64,000 bases of DNA, from contig JAHEAZ010000002.1 of NCBI GenBank assembly GCA_024642505.1, positions 1 to 64,000 on the forward strand, read 5' to 3'. Under the pieces are notes generated by a model. It worked only from the letters and a program-made list of their open reading frames with translations, made no database searches and had not been told where the DNA came from. Positions 48,127 to 58,929 of this stretch are shown here, piece by piece. Position 1 is the first letter of the stretch; each line of letters starts with the position of its first letter. Made by a program: the position numbers and the translations under genes. The DNA is from Gammaproteobacteria bacterium. Lineage in GTDB: Bacteria; Pseudomonadota; Gammaproteobacteria; Steroidobacterales; Steroidobacteraceae.

Positions 48127-48891
48127 ATGGAGAGCATCGTGCCCGGCAAGCTGGTACTGGTCCGACACGGACAGAGCACATGGAATCTCGAGAATCTGTT
48201 CACCGGCTGGACCGACGTGGACCTGACCGAGCGCGGCCGCGCCGAGGCCCTCGAAGCGGGCCGGCTACTGAAGGAGGAAGGCTTCGACTTCGACCTGGCC
48301 TTCACGTCCGTGCTCAAACGTGCGATCAGGACTCTGTGGATCATCCTTGACGAGATGGACCTGATGTGGATTCCAGTCGAACGTGACTGGCGACTCAATG
48401 AGCGGCACTACGGCGCCTTGCAGGGCCTCAACAAGGCAGAGACGGTCGAGGAGTACGGCGAGGAACAGGTGCTGATCTGGCGCCGGAGTTATGACATACC
48501 GCCGCCGCCACTCGCAGGCGACGATCCACGTCATCCCGGGTTTGACCCGAGATATACATCGTTGGCGCGCGAGGAACTTCCGTCGACCGAGTCGCTCCAG
48601 ACCACGCTCGCGCGCGTAAAGCCCTGCTGGGAGTCGCGCCTGGCGCCGGCGCTGCGCGCCGGCCGGGACCTCCTGGTCGTCGCCCATGGCAACAGCCTGC
48701 GGGCGATGGTCAAGATGCTCGACGAAATGTCTGACGACGACATCGTCGCCTTCAACATTCCGACCGGCGTACCCATGGTCTACGAACTCGACGACTCCCT
48801 GAAGCCCGCGGTGCCGCGTCGCTTTCTGGGTGACCCGGAAGCGATCAAGGCGGCGGCCGAGGCGGTCGCGAACCAGGCCCGGAAACGCTGA
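48127..48891 (+). CDS. gpmA: 2,3-bisphosphoglycerate-dependent phosphoglycerate mutase
   Basis: [31 protein letters not shown]...[20 protein letters not shown]...[17 protein letters not shown]. Confidence 0.95.
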
Positions 48892-50578
48892 GCAGCTGCT
48901 GCAGCAGCACCCCCCTGGCTTCCAGAGAATGCGGCCGCGCCACGACCTGTCCCGCCGGGGCTGACCTCGCGATTGCGGCGACTCCCTCGTAACGAGGGTC
49001 GCCGGGCGCATCGAGGATGAACAACGGCGCGCGGACCCTGGCTGCGAGTTCAAGCAGGTCGGCCGAGAGCGCTGCCCGGCACGCCTGGCCATAGGCGCCG
49101 GGCTGCTGCAGCGTAGCAACCATTCGCTGGTGCAGACGCTGGCCGTCGAGGTCGGGCTCGATGCGTCGTGCTGCCCTGCTCGACCCGTCGTACCAGGGCC
49201 ACTGCAGCTGCTCGTCGCGCAGCCGATGCCAGGTCGCAAGGAAATGCGAGCCGTCCCGCGTCGGCCCGATCTCCGGCGCATAGCGCGCCGAGATGTCGCG
49301 GCGCAGCGCCGCCCCGAGCACCGGCATGCCGTCAAGCACTACGAGGTTGACGCGCGATGACGCAAGCACTGCCGTGTGCAGCGCAAACGGCACCGAGAGC
49401 CCCGCTGCGATCAGCGAAAATTCGTCCAGTCCCTCGGCGTCCGCCATGTCCATCACGACGCGAGCATAATCCGCGCAGTCAGCAGTCTGCCCAAGTGGGT
49501 CCGACAGTCCGCAACCCGGCAGATCCGGTGCGACGACGCGCCAGCCGCGCAGACCGGCGGCTATACCTTCGATGTCGAGCGCAGACCCCGGCGGATCGTG
49601 CAACACGATCACGGCCTGTGGACCATCGCCATGACGGCGCAGCTGCAACTGGCCGTGGTCATGCAGCTGGTAATCGCGGCGCATTGCCCGCCGCCGTCCG
49701 TCCGGGGGCTCGGACGCCACGGCCGCGGTGCCGGAGGAGAAGATCTCACGCAGGCGTCGACGCCAGGCCCCGTCATCGGACGGCAGGCGCTCGACATTCG
49801 CACAGGACGGCCGGCAGGCTTCCACGACCTCCAGGTAGGGATACAACACGTCGTCTTCCCGCGCCATGAAGATTGTGGGCGTGGACAACCCGCGCAGCAC
49901 GCGCAGCGCGCGATAGCGCATTGCGGCGGAGTAGGCCGACGAATAGTTCTCGCCCGCCATGAACAGGTCCATGGCATAGGCATGCAGAGCCACGGGCGGC
50001 GGCTCGTCCATCGGTATGCGTTTGGCAGCCTGGCGATCAAACCAGGGAAAAAAACGGTGCAGGTCGCGGATCTTGGTCCATTGCCTGCTGATATAAGCGC
50101 CTTCCGGATCTACATCGAAGGGGCTCATGTAGGCATTGATGAACTCCGTGGGGACGTCGTCCTGCGGCAGCGACAGGCCGTCGATGACCAGCTGACCGAT
50201 GCTGCGCGAATGACGCAGCGCACAGGACAGGGCGATCTTGGAACTGGTGTGGTAGGCGTAGACCACTGGCCGCTCGAGCCCCAGCGCCAGCAGAGCCGCT
50301 GCCAGTGCATCACCAAAATCGTCAATCTCGGGCCTCGGGTTGGCCGGCAGCGGATCCGACTGGCCATAGCCCGGCGTGTCGAGTGCAAAGATTGTGAACG
50401 CATCGGAAAACTCGTCCAGCAATGGCAGGTGCAGTACCGATGAGCGCGGGCTGTCATGCAGCAGGACGACCGGGGGTCCGGATCCGGCACGGCGGTAATG
50501 GACCAGACGTTCACCGGTCTGGACGAATCCACGGCTGACTCGTTGAGGCACCTGCCCTCCTGTCGTGCTGATCGGCAA
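48845..50578 (-). CDS. tandem alpha/beta-hydrolase-fold protein, nucleophile elbows non-canonical in both halves
   Basis: Two repeats: [41 protein letters not shown] and [40 protein letters not shown]. Elbow positions read [12 protein letters not shown] and [12 protein letters not shown]. Confidence 0.82.
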
Positions 50579-51729: not shown

Positions 51730-52073
51730 CCGCCCTACCCTCTGAAGCTGCTGTTGCTGCCAGGCCGCCAGTCCGGGGACCGGCGGGAAAGCGCGCGCCA
51801 GGTTGCCTCGACCCACAGGCCTTCGCAACCCCAATACTGCGTCGCAGTATAGTGACATCGGCATAGGCAGTCATCGCCGATTTCCGCCACCAATCGCCGC
51901 GCCGATCCCCTGGTCTGCACCTTTCCCGCTGCGGTGATCACCTTTCTGCATCTAACTGACTGCTGCTAGCATTCCTGCCTGACGGGCGATGATCCTGGAC
52001 GGATATCCCCGCGCGGACGGGCACCCGTAGACGGCCTCGTCCTGAATCCTGACAGGCTACGAACTGGACAGTG

Positions 52074-53564
52074 ATGTCAACCGACCCGGGTTTCCCTGCG
52101 CGCCACCCATCTTGGACCGTGCTGCTGCTGGGACTGCTGGTCGGCCTGGCATTCCAGGGCACGCGCCACCTGTGGGAACCAGATGAAGGTCGCTACACCA
52201 ACGTAGCCCACGAGATGGTGGCGCTCGGCGACTGGCTGGTGCCGCGCCTCGATCCCGAGCGGCCGCATTTCACCAAGCCACCAATGACTTACTGGGCTAT
52301 CGCCGCGAGTTTCTCGGTCTTCGGCAACAACGAGTGGGCCGCGCGCCTGCCGAACTCCCTGGCGTTTGCCCTCACGGCACTGTTGGTCTCTGGCATCGCA
52401 CGGCGGTTGCGGCTCGGGAATCCACTCCTTGCGGCAGGCATCTGGATGACCATGTGGGGCCCGGTCATGGCGGCCAACGCCGTGACCACCGACACTCTGC
52501 TCACGCTGTTCGAGACCCTCGCCGTATCTGGCTTCATCGCCTCCGGAATACTCGATTCCAGCGCAACGCCCCGGCGCTTCGGCCTGCGGCTGATGTGGCT
52601 CGGCTTTGGCCTCGCCTTCCTCACCAAGGGTCCGCCCGGCCTGTTGCCGTTGGCGGCCATCGTCACCTTCGTCGCCTGGCGCCGCCGGCGGTACCTGCTG
52701 CAACTGCTGGACCTGCCCGGCCTGGTGCTGTTCGCAGCGATCGGGTTGAGCTGGTACGTAGTCCTGATCTGGCACTCGCCGGATCTGCTCGACTACTTCC
52801 TGGTTCACGAGACGGTCGGGCGCGCGGCCACGGGCGAGCACAACCGCAACGCAGGTTGGCTTGGATGGCTGGTCGTCTATCCGCCGACATTTCTGGTTGG
52901 CAGCCTGCCATGGGTCGCGCTCGCCGTCGCGACCTGGAAGCCCCGCCGACGACAAGGTGAGACGCTCGCGCTCGACCATGACGCGCAACGCCTTCTATGG
53001 CTCTGGATCGGTGTGCCGCTGACGGTCTTCATTTTGGCCCAGTCACGGCTGCCACTGTATGTGCTGCCGCTGTTCGTTCCCCTGGCGCTTTTGCTGGCCG
53101 CCTGGCTGGGCGCATGGGCCGGACACGGCAGGAGAGCAGCAGTGGCGTCCGTACTCGCGCTCTCGGTCGCAATTGCCCTGAAGGCCGCCGGTGCCCGGTG
53201 GCATCCGGACCAGGACGCCTACCGGCTCGCCGCCGAACTGCGCGAGCAGGTAGACCTTTCGGAAATCGACGAACTCGTCTTCGTCGACATCCCGGCACAC
53301 TACGGGCTCAGGCACTACACCGGCCTGAGCGTCGAGGAGGCTGAAACTCACCCTGGTGCTGTTGCACCCGAAGGCTACGCCCCGGCCGAGCCGCTCTGCC
53401 ATGAGCTTGCCACCGGTGAGCGGCTATTGTTGATCGCGCCGCTCAAGAACGCCCGCGACGTCGAGGCGCACATCGAACGCTGCCCGGGGCGGGTCGAGCG
53501 GGCGGGTGCCCTGCGTCGGTGGGTGCTGCTGCGACGGATTCCCTTGGCAGAAGCGCCGGCCTAG
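52074..53564 (+). CDS. ArnT/GT39-like membrane glycosyltransferase
   Basis: FQGTRHLWEPDEGRYTNVAHEMVALGDWLVPRLDPERPHFTKPPMTYWAIAASFSVFGNNEWAARLPNSLA, an ArnT-like N-terminus followed by multiple TM helices. Confidence 0.85.
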   Translation: MSTDPGFPARHPSWTVLLLGLLVGLAFQGTRHLWEPDEGRYTNVAHEMVALGDWLVPRLDPERPHFTKPPMTYWAIAASFSVFGNNEWAARLPNSLAFALTALLVSGIARRLRLGNPLLAAGIWMTMWGPVMAANAVTTDTLLTLFETLAVSGFIASGILDSSATPRRFGLRLMWLGFGLAFLTKGPPGLLPLAAIVTFVAWRRRRYLLQLLDLPGLVLFAAIGLSWYVVLIWHSPDLLDYFLVHETVGRAATGEHNRNAGWLGWLVVYPPTFLVGSLPWVALAVATWKPRRRQGETLALDHDAQRLLWLWIGVPLTVFILAQSRLPLYVLPLFVPLALLLAAWLGAWAGHGRRAAVASVLALSVAIALKAAGARWHPDQDAYRLAAELREQVDLSEIDELVFVDIPAHYGLRHYTGLSVEEAETHPGAVAPEGYAPAEPLCHELATGERLLLIAPLKNARDVEAHIERCPGRVERAGALRRWVLLRRIPLAEAPA

Positions 53565-54430
53565 CCGCCCGTGGAATTTATTTCCAGCCGTGCGGCGAGA
53601 CGCCGTCTTGCGCCGGCCGCCGCTGGCGGCTCGTCTGCCTCGAGGGTCGACCTCAGCGCGAGCCATGCCCACCACACCGCTTCAAACAACCACCGAGCGT
53701 CGGCCAGGCGCTCGGGTGAGGGCAGCGCATGCTGCCGTGAATAGGAGCGCAACAGCGCCTGCAGCGCCACAACGCCCAGATCGTGGTACGCGGCGAATCC
53801 AGCCAGGTCCATCACCGGGTTTCCAAGGCCTGCGTATTCCCAGTCGATTACCACAATCCGCGTCGCCGACCCCACGATGTTGAGATGGTGCAAGTCGTTG
53901 TGGCACAGGACTGTGCAGGCGTCACGCCCCAAGCGCACGCCGGCGGCTCTTGCCTTCGCCACCAGGCTCATCGCTGCGACGTCGTCTCCGAGCGCGGCGG
54001 CATAGTGGCCCAGGCTGTCGACGAAATCGATGCCGGGCATGCCGGCAGGCGCCGGCAGCGCATGCAGTTTCCCGATCCACTCTCCCACAAGCGCTGCACC
54101 GGCGGGGGACCCCGCCCGGCGCCGCGACCAGGCACCGCCCGGGACGCGTTCCATCACCGTCAACCCGAGATCGGGCTCCTCGAGCAGGATCCTGGGCGCG
54201 AGTCCGGATGCCGCCGCAGTGCGTTGTGCCATCGATTCGGTCGTACGCGTAACCGCATATTCGCCATCGTGCGGACCAGCAATGCGTACTACGACGCTGC
54301 GCCCATTGTCGCTCAGCACATAGCAGCGATTCCGCAGTCCGCCGGTGAGTGCCTCGACCGTGGAGGGGACCATACCGAGGCGATGGGCTGCGAAATCGAT
54401 TCGATCGGCATCGCCTGGGGGCATGGACAT
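53561..54430 (-). CDS. choline/thiamine-kinase-like phosphotransferase (candidate thiamine kinase)
   Basis: TGGLRNRCYVLSDNGRSVVVRIAG...CTVLCHNDLHHLNIVGSATRIVVIDWEYAGLGNPVMDLAGF (APH/choline kinase catalytic loop). Last gene of the TPP-riboswitch operon. Confidence 0.83.
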   Translation of the reverse strand: MSMPPGDADRIDFAAHRLGMVPSTVEALTGGLRNRCYVLSDNGRSVVVRIAGPHDGEYAVTRTTESMAQRTAAASGLAPRILLEEPDLGLTVMERVPGGAWSRRRAGSPAGAALVGEWIGKLHALPAPAGMPGIDFVDSLGHYAAALGDDVAAMSLVAKARAAGVRLGRDACTVLCHNDLHHLNIVGSATRIVVIDWEYAGLGNPVMDLAGFAAYHDLGVVALQALLRSYSRQHALPSPERLADARWLFEAVWWAWLALRSTLEADEPPAAAGARRRLAARLEINSTGG

Positions 54431-54434
54431 GGGA

Positions 54435-55049
54435 TCAGGCCGCCCTGGATGCTCGACGCCACGTCCACCAGCCGACGGTTGCCAGCAGGGCGAATGCAAC
54501 GTAGAGCAAGGAAGTGAAAGCAAGTCCCTGGGTGGCGAAAAGCCAGGCGAGCCAGGAGTCGACGACCATCCACCAGATCCAGTTGGCGGGTACCTTGCGT
54601 ACCAACATCCAGGTCGCAGCGATGCTGGCCCAGGTGCCGAACGCATCGGCCCATGGCGCGGCGGAATCCGACCAGGCCGCGAGGGCCGGTGCAGTAGCCA
54701 GGGTCGCCATGCCGACGCCGGCGAATGCCCCGAAATGCCTGTCTAGGCTCCAATGGCGAACCGACATGCCGTCGTCCGAGGCAGCGTCGCGGCCCCATTC
54801 GCGCCAGCCGTAGACAGCCAGCACTACGTAGGCGACCTGCAGAGCCGACTGCAGGTAGAGCCGCGCGTCAAGGAATACAATTACGTAGAGCGCCGTGCTG
54901 AATCCACCAGCCAGCCAGCAACTTCGATGCTGGCGGATCGCCAGGGCAATGTAGCCGAATCCCAGCAGCACGGCAGCGGCCTCGAGCGGCCCGGTCGCCG
55001 CGGCCTGCGCTGCCAGCAGCTGTAACAGGCCTTCAGGCTGGTCAGCCAC
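54435..55049 (-). CDS. pnuT: PnuC-family transporter, probable PnuT-type thiamine transporter by context
   Basis: EAAAVLLGFGYIALAIRQHRSCWLAGGFSTALYVIVFLDARLYLQSALQVAYVVLAVYGWREWGR...LVRKVPANWIWWMVVDSWLAWLFATQGLAFTSLLYVAFALLATVGWWTWRR. PnuC fold; substrate inferred from the TPP riboswitch. Confidence 0.82.
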   Translation of the reverse strand: MADQPEGLLQLLAAQAAATGPLEAAAVLLGFGYIALAIRQHRSCWLAGGFSTALYVIVFLDARLYLQSALQVAYVVLAVYGWREWGRDAASDDGMSVRHWSLDRHFGAFAGVGMATLATAPALAAWSDSAAPWADAFGTWASIAATWMLVRKVPANWIWWMVVDSWLAWLFATQGLAFTSLLYVAFALLATVGWWTWRRASRAA

Positions 55050-55284
55050 CGCCGCCGAGCACCTTCATGACGAATACGGCACGGTGGCCGGCGCCGAAAG
55101 TGGACTCCATTTCCTGGTGCAGTGCCCGCATGACGTCCGGCAGCTCGCCGCTGACCTGGGTGCTCATGGAGTTAGTGACGACCTGCAGGTCTTCACGCGC
55201 ATTGAGCCGTTCGATGAAATCCTTGATGGGCGGAATGTACCCATCCGTCAGCGGGTAGAGACTCAGTTCGACTGCGACGTGCAT
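55042..55284 (-). CDS. YkoF/thiamine-binding-like small protein
   Basis: MHVAVELSLYPLTDGYIPPIKDFIERLNAREDLQVVTNSMSTQVSGELPDVMRALHQEMESTFG, resembling a single YkoF thiamine-binding repeat; lies between the TonB receptor and pnuT. Confidence 0.7.
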   Translation of the reverse strand: MHVAVELSLYPLTDGYIPPIKDFIERLNAREDLQVVTNSMSTQVSGELPDVMRALHQEMESTFGAGHRAVFVMKVLGGGG

Positions 55285-55296
55285 GGCGGGATCCTC

Positions 55297-57363
55297 TCAG
55301 AAGTTCACGCTCGCGGTAATGCCGGACTGGCGCGGATCGCCCAGCCTGACGTAGAGCGTCTCGGGAAAGTCGGGTGGTTCGTTGCCGAAGTAGAAGCCCC
55401 GGACTGGATAACGTTCATCAAAGGCGTTGCGCAACCACGCGTGAATCGACCAGCGCGCTGTTTCGTAGCCGACGCGCAGGTTCACCAGCGAATAGGCACG
55501 CGAACGCTGATCATGGCTGGTGTCGAAATAGAACGCATCCTGGCCACTGACATCCACCCGGCCCATCCAGCCGGCGGGATGCCGCCAGGTCGCGGCCAGC
55601 GAGTACTTCCAGGTTGGCGCGTGCGCCCACTCCCGGCCGTCGAGGTTCCGTTCGGCATAGCGGTAGCCCAGGTACTCAGTATCGGCAAGCGACAATGTTG
55701 CCGCCAGGGTCCAGCGATCCGTTGCCTGCCACTGCCCTGCCGCCTCCAGTCCATAGGCGCGTCCGCGAGCGGCATTGTCCGTGTAGTAGGTGAAGGTGAG
55801 CGGATCCTGCGGATCGAGCTGGAACGACGTGGCAACCTGCTGGCCTTCACGGCGCAGGAAGAACAGGCTGACATCCCCCGTCAGGCGGCGCTCGTCCCAG
55901 CGGCCCTTGATGCCGGCCTCGACGCTCCAGAGGTATTCGGGATCGTACTGCACCCGATCCAGCGGGATTGCCGCACCGATATTGAAGCCACCAGCCTTGA
56001 AGCCGCGGGAGATGGTCAGCCATGCGTGAATCGCCTCATCGAGACGCCGGCCCAGCGACAAGCGCCCTCCCCACATCCTGTCCCGCGGGGAAAAATCAAG
56101 GCCGTCGCTGTCTGAATAGTCAGCGTCGCGCTGCTCCATGCGCAGTCCGCCCGACACCGTGGTCGACGCCGATAGCCGCCACTCACCCTCGCCGTAGATT
56201 GCATAGCTGCTGGCGCGGTAACGGCTGTCCAGGCTGCGATCGAAAGCGTCGCCCAGATAGAGACCGTCGTCACGCTGGTCATTGTCCTCTGCCAGGCGCA
56301 TCAGGTAGGCGCCCGCGATCCACGAAGTTCCGCGCCAGTCGAGCACGCTGAAGCGCAGGTCCTCGCTGAAGCTCGCGCGGTCACGAAGGGTTCGCGAGTA
56401 GAAGTCGTATGGGCCCGCATCGCCCCAGTCGCGGTCGTTGCCCCAGTCACCGTCAAAGCTCGCCTCGATAGCCGAGTCAGCGACGGCCGTAATGCTCCTG
56501 ACCTCGAGCGCCGACGACGGAGCGTAGCGCAGATCAGCCGAGGCGCCGGTCGAGCGTTGCGAGTCGCGGCCCGGTCGGTCCGAGCGGGTGACGTAGGAAT
56601 TATCGAGTGCGAAGGCATCGTAGCCGTTGGCCAGGTCGGCATGAACCAGAGCCAGATCCAGGCGCCAGGCCGCGGACGGCTCGAACCGGACCCGGCCTCG
56701 CGCCGTCAGTTCATCGCGCTCGTTGGTGTCCGCTCGCCCAAGATATGCATTGCGCCGGAAGCCGTTGCTGAGCGTGCGTTGCAGCGCCAGGCGCCACGCG
56801 GATCCGTCTCCGGGTGCCAGGCCACCTCCCGCAATCACTCCCGCCCCGGCCAGTGCATCCCCGCCCAGGGTCGCCTCGAAGGCCAGCTCGGGCTGAGGCA
56901 CCGGCTCGCGCGTCTTGACCTTGATGAGCCCCGCCAGCGCATTGGCGCCGTAGCGCGTTCCCTGAGGTCCGCGCAGTACTTCAACTTGCTCGACGTCGAA
57001 CAGCGTCGCCACCATGCCGATGCCGCTGAAATCAATTTCATCGACCAGGAAGCCGACCGACGGGTTGGGCGCACCCTGGTATTGCTCAAGTTCGCCGATC
57101 CCGCGCAGCTGGAAGTAGCGTGGCCGCGAACTTGCACCGGCCCAGGTAAGCGACGGAACCTGCGGCAGCAGTTCTTCCAGGTGCTGAGTCGCCGCGTCGG
57201 CAACCGTGCGGTGATCGAGCACCGAGACGCTGGCCGGCAGTTCCTCGATTGGCACCTCGCGCAGGGCCGCAGTCACCACTATTTCTTCGAGGCGCACCGG
57301 CTCGCCCGCCTGGGCTGCGGGCATCACGCCGGCGAGCGCCGGCAACATGATCAATAGACGCAT
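55297..57363 (-). CDS. TonB-dependent receptor, probable thiamine (Omr1-like) receptor
   Basis: Signal peptide MRLLIMLPALAGVMPAAQA, then EEIVVTAALREVPIEELPASVSVLDHRTVADAATQHLEELLPQVPSL...VEVLRGPQGTRYGANALAGLIKVKT plug and a C-terminal barrel. ATG at 57363, preceded by GAGGAG. Confidence 0.9.
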   Translation of the reverse strand: MRLLIMLPALAGVMPAAQAGEPVRLEEIVVTAALREVPIEELPASVSVLDHRTVADAATQHLEELLPQVPSLTWAGASSRPRYFQLRGIGELEQYQGAPNPSVGFLVDEIDFSGIGMVATLFDVEQVEVLRGPQGTRYGANALAGLIKVKTREPVPQPELAFEATLGGDALAGAGVIAGGGLAPGDGSAWRLALQRTLSNGFRRNAYLGRADTNERDELTARGRVRFEPSAAWRLDLALVHADLANGYDAFALDNSYVTRSDRPGRDSQRSTGASADLRYAPSSALEVRSITAVADSAIEASFDGDWGNDRDWGDAGPYDFYSRTLRDRASFSEDLRFSVLDWRGTSWIAGAYLMRLAEDNDQRDDGLYLGDAFDRSLDSRYRASSYAIYGEGEWRLSASTTVSGGLRMEQRDADYSDSDGLDFSPRDRMWGGRLSLGRRLDEAIHAWLTISRGFKAGGFNIGAAIPLDRVQYDPEYLWSVEAGIKGRWDERRLTGDVSLFFLRREGQQVATSFQLDPQDPLTFTYYTDNAARGRAYGLEAAGQWQATDRWTLAATLSLADTEYLGYRYAERNLDGREWAHAPTWKYSLAATWRHPAGWMGRVDVSGQDAFYFDTSHDQRSRAYSLVNLRVGYETARWSIHAWLRNAFDERYPVRGFYFGNEPPDFPETLYVRLGDPRQSGITASVNF

Positions 57364-57422
57364 AGCGGCGCTCCTCAGCGGGAACGGCGCGTAGTGCTGG
57401 ATACGGGCAATCTCGGGATCAT

Positions 57423-57525
57423 GCCTGCTCCCTACGCCGGTTCTAACCGGATCAGGTTCTACGGGTTCGCCGGTGAGCTGCAACGAGCGGCCAGCGTCTC
57501 AGGTCCAGTCAGACCACCCCAGGGC
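57423..57525 (-). promoter_or_regulatory. TPP (THI-box) riboswitch
   Basis: Reverse complement GCCCTGGGGTGGTCTGACTGGACCTGAGACGCTGGCC...GAACCCGTAGAACCTGATCCGGTTAGAACCGGCGTAGGGAGCAGGC contains the CUGAGA, ACCCGU and GAACCUGAUCCGGUUAGAACCGGCGUAGGGA cores. Confidence 0.95.
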
Positions 57526-57562
57526 CAATGAGGAAATCCTACCACAAGAAGAGTTCAGGACC

Positions 57563-57645: not shown

Positions 57646-58929
57646 CTACAAGCTGCCCAGTGCCTGCCTGAAATCGGCGATCAGGTCGTCTGGATGCTCG
57701 ATGCCGATGGACACGCGGATCATGTTTTCAGTGATCCCGAGTTCGGCGCGACGCGCTGGTTCGATGTCGGAATGGGTCATTGCCGCCGGATGCGAAGCCA
57801 GGCTTTCGGTTCCCCCGAGGCTGACGGCCAGCTTTACCAGCTGCAACGCATCGAGCACCTTGAACGCCTCAGCCTCACCGCCCTTGACGAAGAACGAAAA
57901 TGTCGCGCCGGGCGCCAGGCACTGCCGCGCATACAGCTTGCCGTCGGCGCTGTCGGGATCGAGGAATCCGAGAAAGGAAACGCTCTCGACCTGCGGATGG
58001 CTCCTGAGAAAATCGGCGACCTTCACTGCGTTGTCGACGGACTTCCGGAACCGGATCTCCAGGGTCTCGAGGCTGCGCATCAGCAGCCACGCGGTATGCG
58101 GATCGGTCATGGTGCCGAGAATGGTGCGCATCAGGTGCACGGGCTCAAGCGCGACCCTGGTGCCCATGCATGCGCCCGCAACGACGTCGCTGTGTCCACC
58201 GATGTACTTGGTCAGCGAGTAGACGACGATGTCGCAGCCGTGATCCAGTGGTCGTTGCCACAGCGGTCCGAGGTAGGTGTTGTCGACAATGACCGGCGGC
58301 CGGAACCCCTGTTTCGCCTCCAGTTCGCCCGCCAGCTGCGCGCAGTCGGCCAGGTCGACCAGCGCGTTAGTCGGGTTGGCCGGGGTCTCGACGTAGATCG
58401 CCGCGATGCGCCCCGTCTCGCGGGCCTTATCGACGGCCGCCCGGCGTGCCGCCGGCCCGGTGCCCGCCTGAAAATCGACGGTCCGGATCCCGAAATCCGG
58501 CAGCACCTTGTCCAGCAGGAAGTCCGATCCGCCGTAAACCGGCGTGCTGTGAACAACGCTGTCCCCGGGCCGGCAGAGCGCGAACAGGCAGGTGGAGATC
58601 GCCGCCATGCCGCTTGAAAATGCCAGCGCGCGCTCAGCGCCGTCCCAGATCGCCAGACGGCCCTCGAGGATCTCCAGGTTCGGATTGTTGAGCCGCGAAT
58701 AGATGAGCCCCGGCGACTCCTGTGGTCTCGGCTCTTTGAGGCCGTAGGCAAGTTCGAAGAAGTGCTTGCCCTCGGCGGCCGAGCGGAAGACGAAGGTCGA
58801 GGTCTGGAAAATCGGGCACTTTACCGCGCCTTCTGACAGGCCCGGGAAATATCCATAGCCCATCATCAGCGTTTCCGGGTGCAGGCGCTGTCCGCCTATT
58901 TCTGTCACGTCGCGGTTCAGCCAGGTCAT
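57646..58929 (-). CDS. Cys/Met-metabolism PLP enzyme (cystathionine gamma-synthase/lyase family)
   Basis: YSRLNNPNLEILEGRLAIWDGAERALAFSSGMAAISTCLFAL...STPVYGGSDFLLDKVLPDFGI...VETPANPTNALVDL...VIVDNTYLGPLWQRPLDHGCDIVVYSLTKYIGGHSDVVAG. Confidence 0.92.
   Translation of the reverse strand: MTWLNRDVTEIGGQRLHPETLMMGYGYFPGLSEGAVKCPIFQTSTFVFRSAAEGKHFFELAYGLKEPRPQESPGLIYSRLNNPNLEILEGRLAIWDGAERALAFSSGMAAISTCLFALCRPGDSVVHSTPVYGGSDFLLDKVLPDFGIRTVDFQAGTGPAARRAAVDKARETGRIAAIYVETPANPTNALVDLADCAQLAGELEAKQGFRPPVIVDNTYLGPLWQRPLDHGCDIVVYSLTKYIGGHSDVVAGACMGTRVALEPVHLMRTILGTMTDPHTAWLLMRSLETLEIRFRKSVDNAVKVADFLRSHPQVESVSFLGFLDPDSADGKLYARQCLAPGATFSFFVKGGEAEAFKVLDALQLVKLAVSLGGTESLASHPAAMTHSDIEPARRAELGITENMIRVSIGIEHPDDLIADFRQALGSL

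Follow-up and report, generated by a model that had tools for sequence, protein, structure and literature searches.

The window analysed here, a stretch of 64,000 nucleotides from a gammaproteobacterial draft genome, contains a TPP riboswitch aptamer and genes for a TonB receptor, a YkoF-like protein, a permease and a kinase, all five collinear on the minus strand. The intergenic gaps along the four genes are 12, -8 and 4 nt. In operon order the elements are:

57410..57531, minus strand: TPP riboswitch aptamer (THI element; RF00059, full model 1-105)
55297..57363, minus strand: TonB-dependent outer-membrane receptor, 688 aa, ATG at 57363 (PF00593, PF07715)
55042..55284, minus strand: YkoF/Thiamine_BP family protein, 80 aa (PF01910, PF07615)
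54435..55049, minus strand: PnuC-fold permease, assigned to the PnuT type, 204 aa, GTG start (PF04973)
53561..54430, minus strand: APH/choline-kinase-fold kinase, 289 aa, ATG start, putative thiamine kinase (PF01636, PF01633)

Neither neighbour is an operon member: 52071..53564 on the plus strand encodes a PMT-type glycosyltransferase and 57646..58929 a Cys/Met-metabolism PLP enzyme. Elsewhere in the window, a reading frame of 577 aa (48845-50578, minus strand) looks like tandem alpha/beta-hydrolase domains; its first half matches Pfam Abhydrolase_1 and the second half is similar by eye.

The aptamer matched the RF00059 covariance model with 62.1 bits (gathering threshold 54.3) over positions 1-105, including both sensor helices, and is the only TPP riboswitch in the draft genome. 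An earlier sequence-only reading of this DNA had placed a THI-box aptamer at 57423-57525 ahead of four collinear genes; the match at 57531..57410 confirmed this arrangement.

Pfam searches identified the barrel (PF00593, 5e-29) and plug (PF07715, 7e-15) of the receptor, and none of the specific receptor models was passed. As in Omr1/OMthi, a plug and a barrel of the TonB type lie behind a THI box, and by context we regard the protein as a putative Omr1/OMthi-like thiamine receptor. The kinase matched PF01636 (4.7e-21) and also PF01633, its catalytic motifs CHNDLHHLN and IDWEYAG are intact, and it shares 25% identical aa with E. coli ThiK across 191 aa. With 71.6 bits it stayed below the cut-off of the thiK equivalog TIGR02721 (299.45), so it was not filed as ThiK and a role as thiamine kinase is inferred. 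Its score on the GntI kinase model (93 bits) is slightly above its thiK score, which weighs against the thiamine-kinase reading.

The YkoF-like protein and recurrence of the gene set

The small ORF scored above the cut-offs of PF01910 (27.4 bits, cut-off 24.9) and PF07615 (24.1 bits, cut-off 21). A profile of 23 relatives retrieved B. subtilis YkoF (1s7h, 8e-10; 1s99, 2e-9), and an AlphaFold2 model (mean pLDDT 91) matched MTH1187/YkoF structures in the PDB, among them 1sbr, YkoF bound to thiamin. S8, Y10, P11, I24, T37, S41, T42 and G46 are invariant. The protein failed the MTH1187 equivalog TIGR00106 (17.8 bits, cut-off 54.7) and is therefore filed in the wider family; the assignment as YkoF-like in the sequence-only reading stands. 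It comprises one domain of 80 aa and lacks the two tandem domains of B. subtilis YkoF. No export signal is visible in the protein, which should therefore be cytoplasmic.

Of the 30 nearest PnuT loci, 22 have all four genes together, as do 73 of 80 loci from named genomes. The named loci span Steroidobacter, Povalibacter, Microbulbifer, Zhongshania, Gilvimarinus, SAR92, Luminiphilus, other Halieaceae, Kangiellaceae, Oceanobacter and others. Among 47 relatives with a PnuC-family gene, 41 have a TPP riboswitch upstream on the same strand; in 4 more the riboswitch lies on another contig, before a TonB receptor. Chance co-location is ruled out by this recurrence of the gene set.

In a class-wide sample the YkoF-like protein was found in 12 of 276 genomes, and 13 of the 14 matches adjoin a PnuT, so that adjacency of the two is the rule in Gammaproteobacteria. 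Its place in a PnuT-type pathway had been called unexpected; judged by these matches and by the 73 named loci, it is the usual arrangement of the class. No description of a YkoF-PnuT pairing was found in the literature searched, though subscription papers or comparative-genomics databases may hold one. A minority of operons lacks the YkoF-like gene (e.g. L046, L055, L057, L067, L072 and L093), which suggests that the protein is probably helpful and not indispensable.

Several loci deviate from this layout. Where the operon is split (L086 with L048 in genome G025, L088 with L062 in G046), receptor, riboswitch and YkoF-like gene remain in one place, and permease and kinase form a pair elsewhere, without a riboswitch match. 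Locus L078 (5012-6300) has a tandem pair of YkoF-like genes between receptor and PnuT. A YkoF-PnuT pair is also present on a contig binned as Rhodothermota (L147, JABDJZ010000090.1, labelled Rhodothermales); its permease branches with a SAR92 permease, suggesting gene transfer or a mis-binned contig. Some other gammaproteobacteria that lack the downstream kinase have a divergent APH-like gene beside PnuT, on the opposite strand (L076 4195-5079, L077 7153-8076, L085 6775-7872), and similar genes are found at L078 6939-7919 and L084 7001-7927. The Pfam APH match is weak in three of these genes and missing in two; they may encode an alternative trapping kinase.

Permease type

The permease matched PF04973 (1.2e-41) and is the only gene of this family in the draft genome. 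Its profile and its structure model both matched the solved PnuC structure 4QTN; a phmmer search of the PDB with the permease alone gave no match. It also passed the NCBIfam PnuC equivalog TIGR01528 with 53.0 bits (cut-off 42.45), which counts against a thiamine reading. Together with the shared fold, this score would fit a permease that carries nicotinamide riboside, beside a kinase for nicotinamide riboside or another small molecule and a riboswitch that mainly controls the receptor. However, TIGR01528 does not separate PnuT from PnuC, and a true PnuC, from genome G050 of the same order, reached 100.8 bits. In a tree of 83 permeases the window permease fell into a thiamine-context clade of 62 rows with 100/100 support, from which E. 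coli PnuC, 4QTN and every NadR-linked permease are excluded.

Genome G050 offers a natural contrast to the thiamine operon: its PnuC is directly followed by a NadR-type kinase (L075, 5009-6159) and branches outside the clade, and the genome has ThiC and no TPP riboswitch match. In the window, by comparison, the permease is co-located with a TPP riboswitch, a YkoF-like protein and the receptor. Tree and context led us to reject a nicotinamide riboside transporter, a reading to which we attach hardly any probability. Given its place in a clade that excludes PnuC and the NadR-linked members, the label 'NR transporter' given by automatic annotation is probably a misnomer, and the earlier advice against it was sound. 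In PMC7749635, PnuT of Shewanella woodyi is reported as a thiamin transporter and the specificity of PnuC-like proteins is described as tracking the riboswitch class. Fold, clade and context point to a permease of the PnuT type that would let thiamine pass. Automatic pipelines will label such permeases nicotinamide riboside transporters.

The riboswitch leader

The aptamer core terminates in GUAGGGAG, by its sequence a good ribosome site, next to which a short reading frame opens:

57428..57433, minus strand: AGGGAG, located at the 3' end of the core aptamer and proposed to serve the leader ORF as ribosome site (from sequence; position conserved in relatives)
57375..57422, minus strand: leader mini-ORF of 15 codons (MIPRLPVSSTTRRSR; from sequence, putative function)

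The ATG of the leader ORF (57422..57420) lies 6 nt past GUAGGGA, and its TGA (57377..57375) overlaps GAGGAG (57376-57371), the ribosome site for the receptor ATG at 57363. Two members of the same genus have similar leader mini-ORFs, one with GTG and 15 codons (L037) and one with ATG and 19 codons (L038). In L036, L039, L044, L066 and others, the start codon at this aptamer-adjacent position shares the reading frame of the receptor. L040 and L043, also from this genus, have no start codon there.

Across 96 distinct leaders, 65 contain CCGG[AG]T[CT] downstream of the aptamer, the complement of the aptamer stretch GAUCCGG, typically followed by a hairpin that covers the ribosome site, as in a sequestor design. 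Control in the window might likewise be exerted by a downstream sequestor of the ribosome site or by a terminator, the adjacent start and the leader ORF being incidental. The minimum-energy fold of the window leader, which was no better than that of shuffled sequences (z 0.22), speaks on this side as well, and is neutral on direct masking by the aptamer. The window leader, however, lacks the motif, and a sequence scan of the stretch from the aptamer to the receptor start gave nothing resembling a terminator, for which reason control by a transcription terminator was rejected; the same scan found no promoter-like site. Furthermore, the spacing of exactly 6 nt between GUAGGGA and an ATG or GTG is shared by the window, L036, L037, L038, L039, L044 and L066, and usable adjacent starts associate with absence of the motif (17/10 vs 14/55, Fisher p=0.0002, relatedness ignored).

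We consider a sequestor or terminator a plausible explanation for the window, though not the one to be expected. Judging from the leader sequences, the folded aptamer most likely masks the ribosome site directly in the window; for this genus we propose such masking, with translation of the receptor coupled to the leader ORF. An aptamer-adjacent start in this genus, which in the window opens a leader ORF, as opposed to the sequestor-type leader of most relatives, would be a new detail of TPP control.

Probable thiamine salvage and comparison with known systems

Family searches of the draft genome (3.1 Mb in 156 contigs, 96.5% complete, 4.2% contamination) found no ThiC, ThiE or thiamine pyrophosphokinase; with this number of contigs and this contamination such absences are not final. 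ThiL is present on another contig (333 bits). With ThiL and without the pyrophosphokinase, free thiamine would first have to be turned into TMP by a thiamine kinase before it could be used, and from established pathway knowledge the operon kinase would fill this place ahead of ThiL. Its fold and intact motifs, together with this set of enzymes, suggest that the kinase phosphorylates thiamine to TMP.

Searches gave no ThiC for any of the 6 genomes in the genus; of 40 relatives, 6 had a match above cut-off. Among these 40, a thiamine-type PnuT associates with the lack of ThiC (30/1 vs 4/5, Fisher p=0.001, relatedness ignored). Thiamin is required by four OM60/NOR5 strains, including Luminiphilus syltensis (PMC3679898); since Luminiphilus and other Halieaceae are among the loci with the operon, this requirement independently supports auxotrophy among relatives of the carriers. 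The host, a gammaproteobacterium related to Steroidobacteraceae, is a probable thiamine auxotroph.

We conclude that the locus is very probably a TPP-repressed thiamine-salvage operon of such an auxotroph. The receptor would bring thiamine through the outer membrane, as suggested by its family, the riboswitch and the phenotype of its Bacteroides counterpart OMthi, and the PnuT-type permease would allow equilibration over the inner membrane. Inside the cell, the kinase would convert thiamine to TMP and thereby trap it, the YkoF-like protein would probably act as a cytoplasmic thiamine binder, either a buffer or a hand-over carrier, as its family suggests, and ThiL, encoded elsewhere, would convert TMP to TPP, a reaction taken from established knowledge. 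Plentiful TPP is expected to fold the aptamer and hide the ribosome site, most likely directly, as the start codon adjacent to P1 would be served by GUAGGGAG, and to lower expression of the receptor and the downstream genes. Substrates, direction, kinase product, the role of the YkoF-like protein and translational control are all deduced from these observations.

The sequence-only reading had likewise proposed that the operon combines import across the outer and the inner membrane with trapping by a kinase, which agrees with our results, with substrates assigned by family and context. It went too far in calling the operon self-contained: the last step needs ThiL from another contig, and a TonB-dependent receptor requires TonB/ExbBD.

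A different substrate has also to be considered. Instead of intact thiamine, the operon could salvage one of its precursors or degradation products, such as HMP or AmMP, on which the kinase would act; PMC5037267 cites a paper whose title calls YkoF-type proteins thiamin/HMP binding (Devedjiev 2004). Against this, neither ThiE, which joins pyrimidine and thiazole, nor ThiC was found, in searches that covered ThiC, ThiE, ThiL and thiamine pyrophosphokinase. With ThiE not found we think salvage of HMP or another precursor very unlikely, and favour thiamine itself as the substrate.

More tentatively, and as a combination that we consider rather unlikely to hold in full, the YkoF-like protein may be a dedicated cytoplasmic carrier that passes thiamine from PnuT, a permease of facilitated diffusion, to the kinase while the aptamer of this genus supplies the ribosome site of a coupled leader ORF. 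The function of B. subtilis YkoF is termed unclear in a review (PMC5037267), and the carrier role, if true, would be a general one for the YkoF family. As this unexplained family regularly lies next to PnuT, its role could be tested with three small purified components. More broadly, the locus would provide a one-operon route by which vitamin B1 is scavenged in a large bacterial group whose members mostly seem unable to make B1, comprising Steroidobacteraceae and also SAR92, Halieaceae, Microbulbifer and others.

Predictions of THI-box-controlled omr1 and pnuT genes date back to 2002. The gut Bacteroidetes operons OMthi-pnuT-tnr3 resemble the present one in TPP riboswitch, TonB receptor, PnuT and trapping enzyme, often in one operon, and OMthi and PnuT mutants of B. 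thetaiotaomicron show thiamine phenotypes (available text of PMC5613172). They differ in the trapping enzyme, which is the pyrophosphokinase Tnr3 in Bacteroidetes and an APH-type kinase ahead of ThiL here, and in the YkoF-like protein, which is present here and not reported for the Bacteroidetes operons in that part of the source. S. woodyi PnuT (Jaehme 2018, via PMC7749635) is similar by description, as a PnuC-fold permease in a thiamine context. PnuC itself (4QTN, E. coli PnuC) shares fold and Pfam family with the window permease but forms a separate clade, and in place of a NadR partner the window has a TPP riboswitch. The B. subtilis YkoF/MTH1187 family is alike in fold, in the conserved sequence of one YkoF domain and in THI-box context, whereas B. 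subtilis YkoF has two tandem domains and the ECF partner YkoEDC, as opposed to a single domain and a PnuT partner here. E. coli ThiK shares the APH fold, the catalytic motifs and the proposed reaction ahead of ThiL with the window kinase, which differs from it in its limited identity and in a score far under the thiK cut-off. Taken together, the evidence gives good support for a system that follows the known Omr1/OMthi-PnuT scheme of salvage in a variant form, distinguished by its APH-type kinase and its YkoF-like protein.
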